64,000 nt of DNA from Sediminispirochaeta bajacaliforniensis DSM 16054 (GTDB lineage Bacteria > Spirochaetota > Spirochaetia > DSM-16054 > Sediminispirochaetaceae): contig NZ_KB899418.1 of assembly GCF_000378205.1 (NCBI RefSeq), positions 1-64,000 on the forward strand, given 5' to 3'. The stretch's first letter is position 1. Each line of letters starts with the position of its first letter. Both the position numbers and the translations under genes were made by a program. Of this stretch, positions 41,212 through 50,226 are shown one piece after another. Below the pieces are notes generated by a model that worked only from the letters and a program-made list of their open reading frames with translations, searched no databases and was not told the origin of the DNA.

Positions 41212-42018
41212 ATGGAAAATCTTCATACATTATTTGATTTGACAGGCAAGGTTGCAGTTGTTACCGGCGGCTACACAGGCCTTGGGTACGATATGGCCTG
41301 TGCACTTTCCGAATATGGAGCAACGGTAGTTATAAGCTCCAGATCCCGGGAGAAAGCTGAGAATGTCGCCCGGTCTATGTCCGAAACATACCACAATAGG
41401 GTAATCGGCCTCGATTTGGATCAAAGCAACTATGACAGCTGCAAAACCCTTGCCGACAGCGTTCATGAGGAATGTAAGCGCATAGACATCCTGATAAACA
41501 ACGCAGGAGGCGGGTCGGGAAAGGGAAAATGTAATTTCCTCGAACGTAATCCGGAGCTGATGCGTTCTATGATCGAGACCAACCTGCTCGGCCCTCTCTT
41601 CTGCTGTCAGAGTTTCGGGCGCTACATGGTCGATCAAAATTCCGGATCGATTATCAATATAGCATCGATAGCCGGTATTACAGGACGTGATCGATCGATG
41701 TACCACAAAGCGAAGAAGGAAGAACAACCTGTCGAGTACGCAGCATCGAAAGGCGGAATTATCGGGATGACGCTGGATTTGGCGGCCTATATGGCCCCTT
41801 TCAATGTAAGGGTAAATGCTATATCCCCAGGCGGCTTTGATAAGGGAGAATTAACAAAAGCGTTTGTGCAGGCCTATTCGGAAAGAACTCCGCTCGGTCA
41901 CATGGGAGTCCTCAACAAAGAAATCATGGGAACCGCACTTTTCCTTGCCTCGGAGGCATCCTCTTATATCACGGGCCAAAATATCGTTGTCGACGGAGGA
42001 TTTTCAACCTGCCGGTAG
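41212..42018 (+). CDS. Short-chain dehydrogenase/reductase (gluconate 5-dehydrogenase-like)
   Basis: This 268-residue classical SDR has the NAD(P) loop VTGGYTGLGYDMA, NNAGGG, the catalytic Ser in IINIASIAG, Tyr and Lys in EYAASKGG, and a C-terminal GQNIVVDGGFSTCR. It is close in style to gluconate 5-dehydrogenase and KduD. It begins 19 bases after the TRAP permease and belongs to the same operon. No NanE or NanK is nearby, so the enzyme may act on a sugar-acid variant brought in by the transporter. Its 3' end overlaps the next, convergent gene by 15 bases. Confidence 0.88.
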   Translation: MENLHTLFDLTGKVAVVTGGYTGLGYDMACALSEYGATVVISSRSREKAENVARSMSETYHNRVIGLDLDQSNYDSCKTLADSVHEECKRIDILINNAGGGSGKGKCNFLERNPELMRSMIETNLLGPLFCCQSFGRYMVDQNSGSIINIASIAGITGRDRSMYHKAKKEEQPVEYAASKGGIIGMTLDLAAYMAPFNVRVNAISPGGFDKGELTKAFVQAYSERTPLGHMGVLNKEIMGTALFLASEASSYITGQNIVVDGGFSTCR

Positions 42019-42918
42019 GGCCCGGCAGGTTTTTATCTTCACTGTCAGTCGGCCGTAAAAAGCAGGATCAAGGTCGGCCGAGGTATCCAAACGGCGCCGG
42101 AGCTCTAAACCGCCTTCGAGTTCAAACGAAAGCTCTCCCCCGGTATCGTAGGAAAGCATGGGACCGATCAAAAATTGGGCCAGATTGAGCGCCTCTGTAT
42201 CTACCACTCCATCGGATGATTCGGCTTTTACGACCGTTAGTGTCGAGCTGTTGATAGCGTTTACGGATAAACGAAGGCGCTTGCTTAACGGGTAGGTAAA
42301 CGAAAAGCGAAAGAGAAATAATAGTGAAACGATGAGACCATTTTCCCATTCCTTTGAAATCCCCACTATCGGCAGCAAGGGGTATTCGAAATTTTCTGAA
42401 TAAACGACTCCCCATTGAGTGGAAAAATCGGACAACGGCAGAGAGATCAACCCCATCAGGAAGATTGCCCCGGCCTCCCCTAAAGGTTCCAGGTCCCGAT
42501 CCCAAAGATATTCAAGGCCCAACCGGCTAAGGAGCATGATCCCTTCGGAATAACCAAGTACCGCACCGATAGAGGCTGACATGTGGTGTAACAGATATTC
42601 TTCGGAGCCTTCGATATTTCGACTATGTACTCTATCGAAATAGGAGACCAGTGAGGCAGAGACACCGCCCCTTTCCCCAAAGGGTAAAGGAAAGAGTGGC
42701 GTATCAACCCCGATGCTTATTCCCGATTTATCAAGGCCCTCCCTGCCGGAAGTTTCCCTATTTCCGTAAACCTGTAAAGAGAATGCGGGACAGATGGAAA
42801 CTTGAGAGTCGGCAAACAGGGGCGGCCGTACCATAAAAGCACATGCCAAAAGACATCCCGCTATCTTCAGGATGTACTTCCCTTGTTGCACATCCCGTGT
42901 TGACAAACATCGGCTCAT
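42004..42918 (-). CDS. Predicted outer-membrane beta-structured protein of unknown family
   Basis: The protein has about 304 residues if read from ATG 42918. A signal peptide (ILKIAGCLLACAFMVRPPLFA) precedes DSQVSICPAFSLQVYG. The rest is made of amphipathic strands typical of a small outer-membrane barrel: ISIGVDTPLFPL, YLLHHMSASIGAVLGY, LELRRRLD and FYGRLTVKIK at the very end. The start is uncertain: the frame is open further upstream, and ATG 42936 lies inside an operator dyad. It is divergent from the RND efflux operon and shares its control region, so it may be part of the same response. Confidence 0.6.
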   Translation of the reverse strand: MSRCLSTRDVQQGKYILKIAGCLLACAFMVRPPLFADSQVSICPAFSLQVYGNRETSGREGLDKSGISIGVDTPLFPLPFGERGGVSASLVSYFDRVHSRNIEGSEEYLLHHMSASIGAVLGYSEGIMLLSRLGLEYLWDRDLEPLGEAGAIFLMGLISLPLSDFSTQWGVVYSENFEYPLLPIVGISKEWENGLIVSLLFLFRFSFTYPLSKRLRLSVNAINSSTLTVVKAESSDGVVDTEALNLAQFLIGPMLSYDTGGELSFELEGGLELRRRLDTSADLDPAFYGRLTVKIKTCRALPAG

Positions 42919-42934
42919 AAGCTTAAGGTATATC

Positions 42935-42957
42935 ATTATTGACCAATGGTCAATAAT
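42935..42957. promoter_or_regulatory. 23-bp operator palindrome of the efflux operon
   Basis: ATTATTGACCA (42935-42945) and TGGTCAATAAT (42947-42957) form a perfect 11-bp dyad around a single A. It lies between the divergent outer-membrane gene and the efflux operon, 25 bases before the TolC-like start. Size and form fit a TetR-family dimer site, and a TetR gene ends the operon. Confidence 0.75.
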
Positions 42958-42981
42958 GACTAATAGACAGGAATATGGTAT

Positions 42982-45339
42982 ATGACGATACGAAACGGAA
43001 AAAGAGTAGCGATAGGTTTTCTCATCCTTATGGCAGTTCAGGCAAATGCGGAGGAACTTGCACTTATCCTGGACGGTCCCTCGGAAAACTACGTCCCCTT
43101 GCTGGCCGAGATTACACAGCAGTTCAGCAACGAAGAGATAATGGCCGAACCGGTGCTCATTGCGGACAATATATTGAGTATGGCTCCGCCGGAAGCGATC
43201 ATCAAGGTAAAAAAGGCCTGGCCGGAACATGGCTTCAAGAGGATTCTTGCCTTGGGATATGCCAGCTCGAAAACGGCCTTTGCCATAGCTGGCCAGGAAG
43301 ATATCATCCTTTCGGTTTGCGAAGGACTCCCGGATAAGGCGGTGGCAGAGCTACGGATGCTTGCAGGCACATCGGGAAACGTTCTTGTTATATCGGTCCC
43401 GCCTATACCGAAAGAAGAAATAGGGAGAGCAAAAGAGCAGTTCAACTTTACCCGTATAGGGGTGATGGCAGACCAGGATCTTTCCCGATGGAACGATACA
43501 ATCCCCAGCTGGTATCAAGAAGCTTTAGCGGATGATAGCGAAGTCGGCATTGAGCTCTTGGACTACACAGATACAGAGACCATGATCGAAGGCATTCAAG
43601 CATTGGACTATGATGCCTTCTATCTCTTACCAACCGCTCGTCTATCGGAAAAAGAACGCCGGCAGCTATATCTTGCATCGAGCAAACTGCATATCCCCCT
43701 TATTAGCGGTGCCGGAGAAAAAGAGGTTGAATTGGGCGCCTTGGCAGCCTATAAGCCCGCATTAACGACACAGCTTGCACGGGAAATTGTCGTAAGTCTC
43801 GATCAGCAAAAAGCGGGATGGAAGGCCCTGACAACGCCATTAGTGGAAATACATCCCCCGCCCAAACTATCGATAAACCTCTCAAGTGCAGACAATATAG
43901 GTCTTTCCCTTAGCTGGGAAACCCTTCTTGCGGCAGAACTACTTGGCAGCTCCAGTGCAGTTGTACCGTTTCCCGATATAAAGGAGCTGCTGGAGCTGGC
44001 AAAGCGGCATAGTCCCGAACTGAGGGCATCGGAAGATGCAGTACATGTTCAAGAAGCCACAACAGCGCTTTCACGCAGCCACTTACTCCCCTCCCTCGAT
44101 ACCTACCTACAGGGAAGCCGCATCGATAAAGACCGGGCCGAAAGCCTCGGAACCCCGGATGAACTCCAGCTGATCGGCGGCTTACAATTTCAACAGCTTT
44201 TGTGGTCAGAAGAAGCGTGGGCACAATATGATATCCAAAAATCACTCTTACAACAAAGCAAACAGCAAAACTCCAGTACCCTCGATTCCATACTCTCTTC
44301 TACGACCGATGCCTATTATACGATCATACAGGCCGATGCCTCGGTGAGGGCAGCCCAGGAAAACCTTGCAAGCACAAGGGCTTATCTTGGTCGTGCAAAA
44401 CTACTTAAGAAGACGGGACAGGGAAGCGAGGCCGATGTTGCGCGTTTCGAGGCTAAAACGGCCCGGGACTCCCAGCAGCTTATTGATGCCGTGTTTTCGG
44501 CAAAAAATGCCCGCTTGGAGCTCTTCAGAGTCACTGGTTTTACGGAAGAAGGCAAACACTATATCGTTCCCGAAAGTAATCCTGGCGGAGACACATGGGA
44601 ACACTTCCTTTCAGAAATTGACAACGGACGCAAAAGTGAGAAGCTGACTGCCTTTTTCCTTTCTGAGGTCTATGCCTATTCCCCGGATCTGGCAGCCTTA
44701 GGATTCTTTGTACGGGCTTCGGAAAAAGAGCGACAATATAGACGAAAGGCCTTCTACTCCCCAACGATTTCCCTGGTAGCGCAGCTTGAACGGAGCCTCT
44801 ACACAGCAGGAGCATCTTCACCAGCAAGCATTCAAATTTCCGGATTCCCGGAAATCAACCTCCAATCCGAAGATGCGGATGATACAAGCTGGCTTATTGG
44901 TATTAATGTATCCTTCCCCCTTTTTACGGGAACGGAAAGAACGGCGCAACTGCACAAGGCAGAGGCAAAGGTCGATCAAGCAACCGCAAGCCTGCTCGAC
45001 GGGCGGAACAGGATAGAACAAGTTGTACGGCAAGTGGTTTCTCAGGCACTTGCCGTCAGCAGGAAACTGGACCAAAGCAGGGCAGGAGAACGAGCTGCAC
45101 AGCAGCTTCTCGATCTCACCGTGCACTCATATGTGCAAGGAATTGCAACAAGCTACGAACTTCTCGACGCCCAGCAAGATGCTTTCTTAGCCAGGCAGCA
45201 AACCATAGATCTCAAAGCGGAACTCAATATTCTCTCTTCCAGGCTTCTTAGGCTTGCAGGTCGAAGCGAAGCACTGTTTTCCGAAGAAAAAATGAGGCAA
45301 CTGATACAAGACTACAAGGACAGCAGCAAGGAGCAGTAA
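42982..45339 (+). CDS. TolC-like outer-membrane efflux protein with N-terminal binding-protein-like domain
   Basis: The protein has 785 residues, against about 420-500 for ordinary TolC proteins. A signal peptide (VAIGFLILMAVQANA) is followed by a domain of about 280 residues (25-305) that looks like an ABC-type periplasmic binding protein of the ABC_sub_bind group: KRILALGYASSKTAFAIAG, NFTRIGVMADQDLSRWND, DAFYLLPTARLSEKERRQL and LHIPLISGAGEKEVELGALAA, quoted as LHIPLISGAGEKEVEL. From about 330 a TolC/OEP region follows with IKELLELAKRHSPELRASED and two long coiled-coil repeats (QRSA-type helices to 780). It is the first gene of the efflux operon, has a good AGGA site, and lies 4 bases before the adaptor gene. 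Confidence 0.85.
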   Translation: MTIRNGKRVAIGFLILMAVQANAEELALILDGPSENYVPLLAEITQQFSNEEIMAEPVLIADNILSMAPPEAIIKVKKAWPEHGFKRILALGYASSKTAFAIAGQEDIILSVCEGLPDKAVAELRMLAGTSGNVLVISVPPIPKEEIGRAKEQFNFTRIGVMADQDLSRWNDTIPSWYQEALADDSEVGIELLDYTDTETMIEGIQALDYDAFYLLPTARLSEKERRQLYLASSKLHIPLISGAGEKEVELGALAAYKPALTTQLAREIVVSLDQQKAGWKALTTPLVEIHPPPKLSINLSSADNIGLSLSWETLLAAELLGSSSAVVPFPDIKELLELAKRHSPELRASEDAVHVQEATTALSRSHLLPSLDTYLQGSRIDKDRAESLGTPDELQLIGGLQFQQLLWSEEAWAQYDIQKSLLQQSKQQNSSTLDSILSSTTDAYYTIIQADASVRAAQENLASTRAYLGRAKLLKKTGQGSEADVARFEAKTARDSQQLIDAVFSAKNARLELFRVTGFTEEGKHYIVPESNPGGDTWEHFLSEIDNGRKSEKLTAFFLSEVYAYSPDLAALGFFVRASEKERQYRRKAFYSPTISLVAQLERSLYTAGASSPASIQISGFPEINLQSEDADDTSWLIGINVSFPLFTGTERTAQLHKAEAKVDQATASLLDGRNRIEQVVRQVVSQALAVSRKLDQSRAGERAAQQLLDLTVHSYVQGIATSYELLDAQQDAFLARQQTIDLKAELNILSSRLLRLAGRSEALFSEEKMRQLIQDYKDSSKEQ

Positions 45340-45343
45340 ACAG

Positions 45344-46450
45344 ATGAAGCATAAGGTGATTTCATGTTTTCTTCTCTCCATATCGACTATGGCGGTACTT
45401 TCCTGCGCAGTAAAAGAAGAACAAACACAGCAGACGCAAAAGTATCGGCCCGTGTGTACGATAACAGCAAGAGAAGGGGATCAAAACAGGCTCTATCACT
45501 ATGTAGGGACGATACGTGCTGCACAGGAAGTGAAACTAAGTTTTAAGGTATCGGGAAGGATCGAAAGGATTTTTTGTGACGAAGGCCAGATCATGGAAAA
45601 AGGACGGACCATCGCTCAAATAGAAAGAGAAGAGTATCAGATCGAAGTCACGCGGGCAGAAGCGGCCTTGCAGAGTGCCGATGTGCAAGCGCTACATGCT
45701 GAAACCGACTACAACAGGACACGGGAGTTATATCGAAACGATGGGATAAGTCGCAGTGATCTGGATGCAGCACTCACCTCTCTGAAAGTGGCAGAAGCAA
45801 ATCAGAGTGCAGCCCAGCAACAACTGAAAGCGGCAAGGGTAAAACTTGATGCCACATCCATGAAGGCACCTCTCACAGGGGCCATCGCCTGCCTGACAGT
45901 AAACGAACATGAAATAGTCAGTGCCGGCCAGCCAATAGGTATCATTTCATCCAATGACGCCTACGAGGTTAGCTTTACGGTACCGGGGAGGATTGTATCG
46001 TACATGGCCCCGGGTCAGTTCATTCGTCTCAAAATCGTCGATATTTCGGAAACGCCCCTCACCGCCCGGATCCAAACCATCGGTGCCGGAAGCGAGCAAT
46101 CAAACACCCTCTACCCCGTCACCGCCCGGTGCATCGACATGCCCGAAGGTATTCGCGCCGGTATGTCGGCGGAGGTTCTTGTTTCCCTGGAACATCAAGG
46201 GGATCGGCAAAGTATTATCGTTCCGTCACATGTAATCATGAGAGAAAACGAAAAGGAATTTCTTTTCATAGCAATCCCGAAAGATGAAAACCTTGCCCAT
46301 ATTACAAAACGGGAGGTAGAAACGGGAAGCCTGACAAATGCGGGGATAGAAATTCTTTCAGGTATCACACCCGGGGAAAAAATAGTCACCGCCGGGATGG
46401 GGCTTCTTAGTGAAGGAGAGACCGTTCGATTGGAGGCGGGAGGGAAATGA
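45344..46450 (+). CDS. RND efflux periplasmic adaptor (membrane fusion) lipoprotein
   Basis: This 368-residue protein has a lipoprotein signal (LLSISTMAVLSCAV, Cys about 21). The lipoyl/biotinyl half-motif reads VKLSFKVSGRIERIFCDEGQ, then a helical hairpin with YNRTRELYRNDGISRSDLDA. The second half-motif reads APLTGAIACLTVNEHEIVSAG, quoted as APLTGAIACLTVNEHEIV, followed by beta-barrel and membrane-proximal domains. It links the inner-membrane pump and the TolC-like protein. An AAGGAG site precedes it and its stop overlaps the pump start. Confidence 0.92.
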   Translation: MKHKVISCFLLSISTMAVLSCAVKEEQTQQTQKYRPVCTITAREGDQNRLYHYVGTIRAAQEVKLSFKVSGRIERIFCDEGQIMEKGRTIAQIEREEYQIEVTRAEAALQSADVQALHAETDYNRTRELYRNDGISRSDLDAALTSLKVAEANQSAAQQQLKAARVKLDATSMKAPLTGAIACLTVNEHEIVSAGQPIGIISSNDAYEVSFTVPGRIVSYMAPGQFIRLKIVDISETPLTARIQTIGAGSEQSNTLYPVTARCIDMPEGIRAGMSAEVLVSLEHQGDRQSIIVPSHVIMRENEKEFLFIAIPKDENLAHITKREVETGSLTNAGIEILSGITPGEKIVTAGMGLLSEGETVRLEAGGK

Positions 46451-49400
46451 ATCTTACGCGCGCGGCCATCACCAACAACAGGACGACAGTTATTATCATT
46501 CTTCTTATGATTGTAGGCGGAATATACTCCTATATATCCATGCCGAAGGCCGAAGATCCCGGCTTTACCATACGAGTTGCGCAGGTCATTACCTACTATC
46601 CAGGGGCAAGCCCGGAACGAGTCAGAAAACTTGTCACCGAGCCCCTGGAAGATGCAATAGAGGGGATTCCCGAGGTCGAGGAAGTTCGTTCGCAGTCGAA
46701 AGCGGATGTTTCGATCATCAGTGTCAAGATCGCCTTTGCATATTCCAATCTTGATCCCATATGGAGCGACCTGGAAGAAGTGGTGGGATCAATCGCACAA
46801 GATCTGCCCGACGGTATAACAGGCCCCTATATCAACGACAAATTTTCCGATATCTATCCGATCCTCCTCACCGTTTCGGGCAGGGATTTTACCCTTCAGG
46901 AACTCGGAGATGTTGCAGAAGGGCTGAAACGGGAAATCCAAAAGGAAACTCAGGTTGGCGACGTACGTATAGAAGGGGTACCTGATGAACAGATAACCGT
47001 ACGCTATGATTCTTCCCAACTCACAAATTTCCGGATTACGCCGTATCAGCTTGCAAGTGTGATGGAAAACACCAACATCGTCCGCCCGGGGGGAAGCATA
47101 AGAACCTCGCAGGAACGCATTTCGATAGAACCCTCGGGTTCCTTTGCCGATCTGGAGGCATTAAAGAGCACCCTGATTACTATTCCCGGCCGGCAAGAGG
47201 TGGTCCCCCTTTCCGACATCGCCGAAGTGGTAAAAGAAGAAAAGCACCCTTTCGACAAGTACATCTCGGCAAACGGAGAACATGCTGTTCTCATAGCCGT
47301 CAATATGAAAGAAGGTGGAAATATCACGACCATGGGAGATCAGATGAGGGCCCTGATCGAAGATATGAAAGACCACTACCCCATCGGGATAAATTTCGAT
47401 TTCATTGTTTTTCAGCCCAGCATAGTCGAGGATCTTATATCGACCTTCACATCCAATGTACTTCAAGCCATGATCATTGTCCTCATCGTGATGTTTTTCT
47501 TCCTGGGATTCAGGGAGGGAATTCTCGTGGCCTCATTGGTCCCGCTCTCGATGCTTACCACCCTCAGCATTATGAAGGCGACGGGAATCTGGATAGATCA
47601 AATGTCACTTGCCTCGCTGATTATCGTTTTGGGGATGTTGGTGGATAACGCCATCGTCATCACGGAATCCACAACAGTCCTGATGAAAGAGGGGATGACG
47701 GTCTTTGATACCTCCCTAAAATCGGTAAAAGAATTACGGATTCCCCTCCTTACAAGCTCGCTAACCACCGCCTTCGCCTTTCTTCCCATTGTCATGTCGC
47801 AAAATCAGACAGGAGAATTTACCCGGCCGCTTTTTTGGGTCGTATCCATCACGCTTCTCGCCTCATGGATGATCTCCACGACAATCATTCCCTTTTTTGC
47901 TCAACGGCTCCTTGCAAAAAGGTATCAGGGAAGAAAAGCGAAAGCATCTCAAAGGAAAAACAAAACATCACCTTCCCGTTTTCCTGCCTATTACGAAACG
48001 TTGCTTGCACGCATGTTGAAACATAGAGGTATAGTTGTCCTGGTGCTTATGGCAGCGTTCATCGGAGCACTCTGCCTTTTCACTCGCATCCCCTCCTCTT
48101 TTTTCCCTACCGCAGACTTTCCCGTCTTCACCGCAGAGGTAGTTCTTCCCCGGGGAAGCTCAATTGAGCGTTCGGCAGAGGTAGCAAGAGACTTCGACCG
48201 ATTTCTCACCACAGAGAGGGGCGCCGACAAAGGAGATGTGGTTAGCTGGGGAACCTTCGTCGGAGGAGGAATCCCACGATTTCGGCTCAATGTTTCTCCG
48301 GAATCAGCCAGACCGGAATACATCTTTATCATCATCAACACCAGCGATTATAAGGACATAGAGCCGCTCATGGCCAAAATCGAAAACTATGCGACTACAA
48401 AGCATCCCGATGCACGATTGACCCAAAAGCGTTTTACTACCGGGGTGGAAGTTGATGCTCCGGTGGAGATTCGCATCTCGGGGCCGGAGAGAAGGCAGCT
48501 GATGGAAATCGTCGGATTGCTAAAGGCAAAACTTGCCGAGACAAAGGGTTTAAAACATATTCGGGACGACTGGGGAGCCGATGTCAAGAAGCTTGATATC
48601 ACCATCGACGAGGAACTTGCACGAAAAGCCGGGGTGAGTAATCAGGATATTGCTATATCACTGCAGGCCGCTACACAGGGTATTACAGTTTCCCAATATC
48701 GCGGGGATGAGGAGATCATTCCCATTGTTCTCAAAGATGGTGCGATAGACGATAGGGACATCGACAGACTTTCATCGCTGCAGACCTATGCCCAGTCATC
48801 GGGAAAAGCGGTCAACCTTTCCCAGGTGGCCGGTGTCGACCTCCTCTGGCAGCCGGCGGTCATTATCAGAAAAGATGGACTTGATACCATTACCGTCCAG
48901 GCAGAAACGACGAAGGATGTAAGCGCCATCGAACTGGCTGATAGGATCGATAGTTGGCTGATAAAAGAAAAAGAGCATTGGCCTGTCGGCTTTTCCTACG
49001 AATTCGGCGGCGAGATGGAGGGATCTTCCGATGCAAACAAGGCTATTATGAGGGAGGTTCCCTTAGCCTTTCTTCTTATACTTCTTCTACTGGTGGCACA
49101 GTTTAACTCTCTCAGAAGGGCCTTTGTCATTCTGGTTACAATCCCCTTCGGTTTCATCGGCGTAGTTATCGGACTCTTGGTAAGCGGCAGTCCCTTTAGC
49201 TTTATGAGCCTTCTCGGCCTTGTTTCCCTTGCGGGGATAGTGGTGAATAACGCCATCATTCTGATCGACAGGATCGAAACGGAACGAAAAAACAAGGGAA
49301 GCCTGGAGAAGGCCATCATCGTTTCGGCTTCGAAAAGATTATGGCCGATTCTGCTTACCACAACGACCACTATCGGGGGGCTGATCCCGCTTATGCTTTT

Positions 49401-49551
49401 TGGAGGTCCGCTGTGGCTTCCCATGGCCTCCGCCATTATCTTCGGGTTAGGTTTTTCGACAATCCTTACCCTCGGTTTTGTACCGGTACTCTATCATCTG
49501 CTCTTTTCTCCAAGGAAGGGAAATCCCCGTAAGGGGGCATCTCTTAGATAA
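46447..49551 (+). CDS. RND family inner-membrane efflux pump
   Basis: This 1034-residue pump has 12 membrane helices and two large periplasmic loops (about 35-335 and 560-870). The N-terminus reads AAITNNRTTVIIILLMIVGG, then PKAEDPGF and TYYPGASPERVRKLVTEPLE. Helix 4 carries GMLVDNAIVITES, with one Asp where AcrB has two, as in many RND subgroups. Helix 10-11 reads GLVSLAGIVVNNAIILIDRI, and the end IGGLIPLMLFGGPLWLPMA is typical. It exports drugs, lipids or toxic metabolites using the proton gradient. Substrate unknown. Confidence 0.93.
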   Translation: MNLTRAAITNNRTTVIIILLMIVGGIYSYISMPKAEDPGFTIRVAQVITYYPGASPERVRKLVTEPLEDAIEGIPEVEEVRSQSKADVSIISVKIAFAYSNLDPIWSDLEEVVGSIAQDLPDGITGPYINDKFSDIYPILLTVSGRDFTLQELGDVAEGLKREIQKETQVGDVRIEGVPDEQITVRYDSSQLTNFRITPYQLASVMENTNIVRPGGSIRTSQERISIEPSGSFADLEALKSTLITIPGRQEVVPLSDIAEVVKEEKHPFDKYISANGEHAVLIAVNMKEGGNITTMGDQMRALIEDMKDHYPIGINFDFIVFQPSIVEDLISTFTSNVLQAMIIVLIVMFFFLGFREGILVASLVPLSMLTTLSIMKATGIWIDQMSLASLIIVLGMLVDNAIVITESTTVLMKEGMTVFDTSLKSVKELRIPLLTSSLTTAFAFLPIVMSQNQTGEFTRPLFWVVSITLLASWMISTTIIPFFAQRLLAKRYQGRKAKASQRKNKTSPSRFPAYYETLLARMLKHRGIVVLVLMAAFIGALCLFTRIPSSFFPTADFPVFTAEVVLPRGSSIERSAEVARDFDRFLTTERGADKGDVVSWGTFVGGGIPRFRLNVSPESARPEYIFIIINTSDYKDIEPLMAKIENYATTKHPDARLTQKRFTTGVEVDAPVEIRISGPERRQLMEIVGLLKAKLAETKGLKHIRDDWGADVKKLDITIDEELARKAGVSNQDIAISLQAATQGITVSQYRGDEEIIPIVLKDGAIDDRDIDRLSSLQTYAQSSGKAVNLSQVAGVDLLWQPAVIIRKDGLDTITVQAETTKDVSAIELADRIDSWLIKEKEHWPVGFSYEFGGEMEGSSDANKAIMREVPLAFLLILLLLVAQFNSLRRAFVILVTIPFGFIGVVIGLLVSGSPFSFMSLLGLVSLAGIVVNNAIILIDRIETERKNKGSLEKAIIVSASKRLWPILLTTTTTIGGLIPLMLFGGPLWLPMASAIIFGLGFSTILTLGFVPVLYHLLFSPRKGNPRKGASLR

Positions 49552-49599: not shown

Positions 49600-50226
49600 A
49601 TGAGTGAGCGGGTTAAGAGGAAGCAATCTGCAGCAAGGCAGCGGCTTATAACCGCTGCCAAAAAGCTGTTCTATGAAAAAGGTTACGATAAAACAACGGT
49701 CCTCGACATAACGACAAGGGCCGATGTCAGCAAGGGGTCATATTATACCCATTTCTCCACCAAGGCCGATATTCTTGCCACCATCGTTATCGAAAACTTA
49801 ATCCGTCAGACCAAAGAAATAGAAGCGATACGGAACACTCCCGTCTCCGGCATCGAAAAGCTGGAGAAGGTCCTTCGTCTTTTCGTCGATCATTTTCTCG
49901 CCGAGCCCGAGAATGGTGATATCACGACGAATACGGAAGTAGCCTTCTGCAGGAACGAGCTTTCCCGCGATGTGGCACGTATGATTGTCTCCCATATCGG
50001 CCTTTTACGCCAACAGTTCATGCAGATCGTAGGTGAAGGAATCAAAGACGGTACTATTCGCAACATCGATAATTTTGAAACCTTCGGGGATGTTGTTATC
50101 CCGATGGCCAGATCCTATCTCGCCCGGACGGCGCTTTTTGCCAATGCCGCCCCGCCCCGTCCGGAACACTTCAAAAACAATGCCAAACACATGGTCGACT
50201 TTTTCATTGCCGTTCTTTCTCCTTAA
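49600..50226 (+). CDS. TetR/AcrR family transcriptional regulator
   Basis: This 208-residue regulator has an N-terminal helix-turn-helix (15-60) with LITAAKKLFYEKGYDKTTVL and VSKGSYYTHFSTKADIL, and a C-terminal helical ligand domain ending in a TetR_C-like VARMIVSHIGLLRQQF segment. It lies 48 bases after the pump gene on the same strand and very likely represses the efflux operon through the palindrome at 42935-42957. Confidence 0.92.
   Translation: MSERVKRKQSAARQRLITAAKKLFYEKGYDKTTVLDITTRADVSKGSYYTHFSTKADILATIVIENLIRQTKEIEAIRNTPVSGIEKLEKVLRLFVDHFLAEPENGDITTNTEVAFCRNELSRDVARMIVSHIGLLRQQFMQIVGEGIKDGTIRNIDNFETFGDVVIPMARSYLARTALFANAAPPRPEHFKNNAKHMVDFFIAVLSP

Follow-up and report, generated by a model that had tools for sequence, protein, structure and literature searches.

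Ducts of the TolC type are usually seen as passive pipes that are opened by the pump they serve. The window analyzed here, a stretch of 64,000 nucleotides from Sediminispirochaeta bajacaliforniensis DSM 16054, carries a gene for such a duct with a binding-protein-like domain joined to its N terminus, and this raises the question of what a domain of that kind might do on an exit channel. The gene stands first in an operon with the order tolC-adaptor-RND-tetR and is preceded by a Shine-Dalgarno-like AGGA, noted by eye. The features of the locus are as follows.

42933..42959, no strand: perfect 27-bp palindrome with 13-bp arms and a 1-bp centre, read from the sequence.
42982..45339, plus strand: fusion outer-membrane channel gene, 785 aa (open frame, PF02321, AlphaFold2 model, structural alignment with TolC).
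42982..43050, plus strand: signal peptide, residues 1-23, without a lipobox (by eye and by a regex lipobox scan).
43051..43947, plus strand: ABC_sub_bind-type domain with a type I periplasmic-binding-protein fold, residues 24-322 (model, Foldseek, hhalign, VIA-align, and relatives above the PF04392 cut-off).
43966..45264, plus strand: OEP/TolC channel part, residues ~329-761 (PF02321; four strands and long helices; Z of ~30 to TolC).
45344..46450, plus strand: RND periplasmic adaptor (MFP; TIGR01730, 219.5 bits against a cut-off of 94.9), with a lipobox-like LSC seen by eye.
46447..49551, plus strand: RND inner-membrane pump (PF00873, 544 bits).
49600..50226, plus strand: TetR-family regulator (PF00440).

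The adaptor gene starts four bases after the fusion gene, and the pump gene overlaps that of the adaptor. With adaptor, pump, and channel genes together, the operon is of the tripartite RND efflux type, and the pairing with an RND pump and an adaptor lipoprotein that the sequence-only reading had described agrees with the PF00873 and TIGR01730 matches and with the lipobox-like LSC. No ABC importer gene lies in this operon, which holds only the adaptor, the RND pump, and the TetR gene beside the channel. The window protein would be the exit duct of the system, with trimer formation and export being predictions from sequence and model.

The channel half is readily recognized. It matches PF02321 at 133.8 bits (cut-off 22), and a full-length AlphaFold2 model of the monomer, built from 10 sequences with a mean pLDDT of 68.8, combines two OEP repeats with a set of four barrel strands and long helices. 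Residues 331-768 of the model align on E. coli TolC over ~410 residues with a Z of ~30, and residue 331 pairs with residue 1 of mature TolC. The same repeats, strands, helices, and RND operon setting characterize E. coli TolC, OprM, and CusC, all of PF02321. The difference resides at the N terminus: according to PMC13082787, TolC starts at the channel and OprM and CusC carry a short lipidated tail, whereas here the channel is preceded by a folded domain of ~300 residues. Other channel proteins read in the same genome have 446 aa (L016) and 477 aa (L012), so that the fusion protein exceeds the usual length by ~300-340 residues; an excess of about 280 residues directly before the TolC region had been noted earlier.

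The extra domain is harder to name from the window copy itself. Pfam gives no match in it at E<=1, the PF04392 cut-off is not reached, and NCBIfam assigns it no name. Its proposed kinship to ABC_sub_bind proteins is nevertheless upheld by more sensitive comparisons. Aligned by hhalign with 26 free-standing ABC_sub_bind-type proteins, the single window domain scores a probability of 96.8 over residues 124-319, against at most 1.7 for 20 shuffles and 0.8 for a channel stretch from the same protein, and the probability rises to 99.7 over 243 columns once eight other fusion domains are added. A domain-only model (9 sequences, mean pLDDT 58.5, N-lobe mostly below 50) retrieves 6hni, 3lft (two chains), 3lkv, and 6hnj as the first five Foldseek matches in the PDB, and these chains belong to CD0873, SP1069, and VC_1101, the solved ABC_sub_bind-type proteins. 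VIA-align gives Z values of 13.0-13.7 for 6hni, 3lkv, and 3lft, and of 14-15 over the C-lobe for a single-lobe Rhodothermus binding protein. Homologs with the same layout pass the PF04392 cut-off of 25.9 by themselves (L023, 38.6 bits; L027, 34.8 bits; L029, 32.7 bits), and it is through such relatives that the N-lobe of the window copy (~residues 24-123), modeled at low confidence, is assigned. By sequence comparison and model, the domain is homologous to free ABC_sub_bind members and shares their fold; the fold prediction that had been suggested as a check thus returned a binding-protein fold. Taken as a whole, the window protein is confirmed as a TolC-family channel with a signal peptide and an N-terminal ABC_sub_bind-type domain of ~300 residues.

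Searching for other TolC proteins of this kind, the second check proposed, yielded 50 fusion proteins from five phyla. Several are near-copies, and 38 remain after collapsing those at least 70% identical. First scans of genome and viral contigs with the single protein gave no match, and a single-sequence search with the N-terminal domain among 392 genomes of the window's phylum returned only itself and two weak, unrelated matches. Plasmids searched with tblastn pointed to Sulfuricurvum kujiense and Cetobacterium somerae, nine loci came from an alignment-based scan of genome contigs, and profile searches added more. Chance, mistranslation, and fusion of frames by the assembly are ruled out as sources of the architecture by its recurrence with the same layout in the 50 proteins, which were gathered with one shared profile and do not amount to 50 independent proofs.

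In genomes sampled by an even draw, and with a search profile that contained the seeds, a fusion frame occurs in two of 373 genomes of the window's phylum (the window genome and G370), in one of 398 from the phylum of the gammaproteobacterial seed (the seed alone), in three of 249 from that of the Sulfurimonadaceae seed, and in 14 of 297 from that of the Desulfobacteraceae seed, the seed being included in both of the latter and all 14 having been read. In the phylum of the Cetobacterium seed, 33 of 98 genomes have a matched frame of at least 726 aa, of which 23 are confirmed. The congener of the window's organism (G001) has no fusion match by profile search. Two further long frames from the search in the phylum of the Desulfobacteraceae seed (in G1118 and G1164) stand outside its count of 14. 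One locus, L166, shows a channel part in one analysis and an N-domain match only in a profile search. Candidates rejected as fusions include L119-L121, which have no channel part, L165, in which neither domain is seen, and L162 and L163, which combine two binding-protein domains with no channel. The latter two, together with L167 and L168, represent a recurrent cluster in the window's phylum in which one or two ABC_sub_bind domains reside in a putative lipoprotein, near a protein of ~800 aa and, in three of the four, one of ~520-565 aa; it looks like a sensory cluster.

Adaptor and RND genes adjoin 40 of the 50 fusions. In four others (L023, L027, L094, and L095) the neighboring adaptor is accompanied by an ABC exporter of RbbA-like type plus a permease, one has an adaptor alone at a contig end (L032), and five have no such partner in the available stretch (L028, L097, L098, L108, and L109). 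The four with the RbbA-type exporter in place of an RND pump are all from Campylobacterota, and the Sulfuricurvum fusion is among those with this partner; one kind of fused duct thus serves two kinds of engine.

Phylogenetic analysis is consistent with a single origin. In a channel tree of 38 of the 50 fusions (<70% identity) with 21 unfused proteins, one branch separates the two groups with one change (support 99/98), and the window protein is sister to L164 of G370 (99/99). A quick tree of the domain, with 32 fusion and 26 free representatives, likewise has one separating branch and one change (SH-aLRT 95); both trees are midpoint-rooted and include flagged long branches. Because both set the fusions apart by one supported branch, one fusion event fits the data. 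Once acquired, the domain has nearly always been kept. The fusion-channel profile was applied to 20 genomes, of which 19 have a fusion and the other is the congener G001. It scores 22 channels at 246 bits or higher, the next match scoring 130, and 21 of the 22 lie in frames of at least 756 aa that retain the extra domain. The N-terminal domain is a fixed part of the whole channel clade, with near-obligate retention. The 22nd is broken by stops and sits in G1262, where a second fusion is intact. That broken copy (L100, 7797-10139, minus strand) has two stops in its binding-protein part, while the frames for the channel part, the adaptor, and the RND pump are uninterrupted; it is possibly a case of domain loss, or else a draft error.

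The reading favored here, at a probability of roughly 0.45, is that the N-terminal domain is a built-in accessory collar, for assembly or regulation, on the exit duct. An ABC_sub_bind-type domain would have been fused once to the mature N terminus of a TolC-like channel; the channel would form a TolC-like trimer, with the three extra domains arranged around its exterior on the periplasmic side, close to the equatorial domain. In the structural alignment the junction falls at the start of mature TolC, which should place the domain in the periplasm, on the outside of the duct. Such a collar could help the duct to fold, to insert, to keep its position in the cell wall, or to dock the adaptor. Roles of this sort have been suggested for lipid anchors at the N terminus and for lipoproteins that accompany TolC as separate proteins; the collar would not be a catcher of substrate. 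According to PMC13082787, YbjP attaches to TolC on the periplasmic side and covers the stretch between the equatorial domain and the membrane, a path also followed by the N-terminal lipids of OprM and CusC. A covalent domain at this position would most simply act in assembly, placement, or docking. The comparison with YbjP, as a folded periplasmic domain on the channel exterior (predicted for the fusion), is one of position and not of fold; moreover, YbjP is a separate lipoprotein, whereas the fused domain is covalent and has no lipobox in 49 of 50 proteins, the single positive in the regex scan being other than the window protein.

Several considerations temper this reading. The trimer and complex geometry is extrapolated from a model of the monomer, and a two-lobed binding fold, both lobes of which are kept in most members, is not needed for such a role. 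In addition, TolC in PMC13082787 arrives at the outer membrane even when YbjP is absent, and YbjP showed no sign of an allosteric role there.

The ligand site is where other explanations can be weighed. The free proteins TrpX/SP1069 (3lft), VC_1101 (3lkv), and CD0873 (6hni), which share with the fusions the fold and a C-terminal motif with a conserved N, bind Trp, Phe, or Tyr (PMC6816091, PMC9382623). They are also partners of importers, whereas the fusions lie in exporter operons. The ligand positions of S. suis TrpX listed in PMC9382623 are T108, A127, T129, D152, N233, and Q273, and the Tyr, Phe, and Trp complexes of CD0873, VC_1101, and SP1069 described in PMC6816091 are consistent with them. 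These positions were transferred by way of a free TrpX-like protein of the same genome (L017, 1465-2493, minus strand), aligned to 3lft. This protein adjoins an ABC permease gene and has most of the aromatic-site residues. The main alignment of fusions and free proteins holds 32 fusion domains; the remaining six of the 38 representatives are shortened and were set aside. T108 is T in one of 32 fusions and in 18 of 26 free proteins; T129 in none of 32 (12 gaps) and in 12 of 26; D152 is D in two of 32 and in 10 of 26; and N233, in a separate alignment, is N in one of 21 and in seven of 26. Judged from these alignments, the aromatic amino-acid site of the TrpX type has been lost in the fusions. 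A strand-loop-helix of the C-lobe at the cleft is also absent from nine of the 50; these nine belong to Fusobacteriota, most of them to Cetobacterium. Of the two results named beforehand as refuting the sequence-only reading, a missing binding-protein fold did not come about, while unconserved cleft residues are largely what the fusions show.

Loss of this signature does not equate to loss of all ligands, since the same positions vary among free family members as well. It could be that the domain is a ligand sensor: it would recognize a small molecule that is connected with export and is not an aromatic amino acid, and its closure would alter channel opening or adaptor docking. This is a tentative possibility, for which no ligand is known. 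The two-lobed type I fold would suit it, as would the cleft-side segment kept in 41 of 50 fusions, even though the other nine have lost it and the known pocket residues are gone. So would the residues that the fusions conserve on their own account: in our reading of the alignment, positions kept in at least 65% of the 38 fusions fall mainly into two sets, a structural one shared by the whole family (D at 86, P239, G279, N299, and A303) and one specific to the fusions (K at 107, Y at 136, R267, and P at 310). Of the 38, 34 retain R267, which lies in the C-terminal portion of the domain. Together, N133, Y136 (in most), K107, and R267 could form another site, a point that also weighs against a purely accessory collar. 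At the N233 position, 14 of 21 fusions have R or H, residues that would go well with an anionic ligand, although this column is uncertain, shifting by one residue between two alignments. Carried further, the domain may have been repurposed after one fusion to a new, perhaps anionic, ligand, so as to sense a molecule in the periplasm and directly open, close, or dock the TolC-type channel. Such a ligand-gated exit duct is rather unlikely on present evidence; if true, the outer-membrane component would be the sensor of the pump.

That the domain catches substrate and passes it to the pump or the duct, the first of the functions envisaged in the sequence-only reading, is improbable. The fold and the operon context would fit, but the pocket is not kept, and the fusion point lies outside the channel, which makes direct feeding of the lumen unlikely. 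In the geometry of AcrAB-TolC, the mature N terminus of TolC is also far from the RND entry. The proposed mechanism is accordingly supported in part. Least probable of all is an evolutionary leftover of little function that decays by drift, to which the faster divergence of the domain (13-21% identity to relatives against 22-27% for the channel, among 12 listed), the shortened forms in Cetobacterium-type members, and the one copy with stops could point, but which is at odds with retention in 21 of 22 close channels from 20 genomes and over five phyla.

Both domains are already known, and the public annotation of some fusions reflects just one of their two halves: WP_041667226.1 of Sulfuricurvum kujiense is annotated as an "ABC transporter substrate binding protein" and WP_330112282.1 of Cetobacterium, in which the domain is shortened, as a "TolC family protein", yet both have the same two-domain architecture. 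In the open-license literature, no description of a TolC protein fused to a binding-protein domain turned up; the only paper with both Pfam accessions, PMC7565204, gives them for two separate proteins. Whichever role the domain may have, a five-phylum clade with a covalent periplasmic domain offers a natural test of whether the duct itself is placed, stabilized, or regulated from the periplasm, and periplasmic control of the duct is a question reopened in 2026 by the TolC partner YbjP.

Two further elements lie at the upstream end of the operon. The palindrome is located just before the start codon of the fusion gene, and its 21-bp core is matched once in the window, where 0 matches are expected. 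No further exact copy exists in the genome, and two looser ones differ by three mismatches (L200 and L201). The palindrome is likely to be an operator for the TetR regulator of the operon. Overlapping this region is a divergent frame (42004-43230, minus strand) whose C-terminal half matches DUF6268 weakly; the frame probably holds an outer-membrane protein gene that starts inside the frame.
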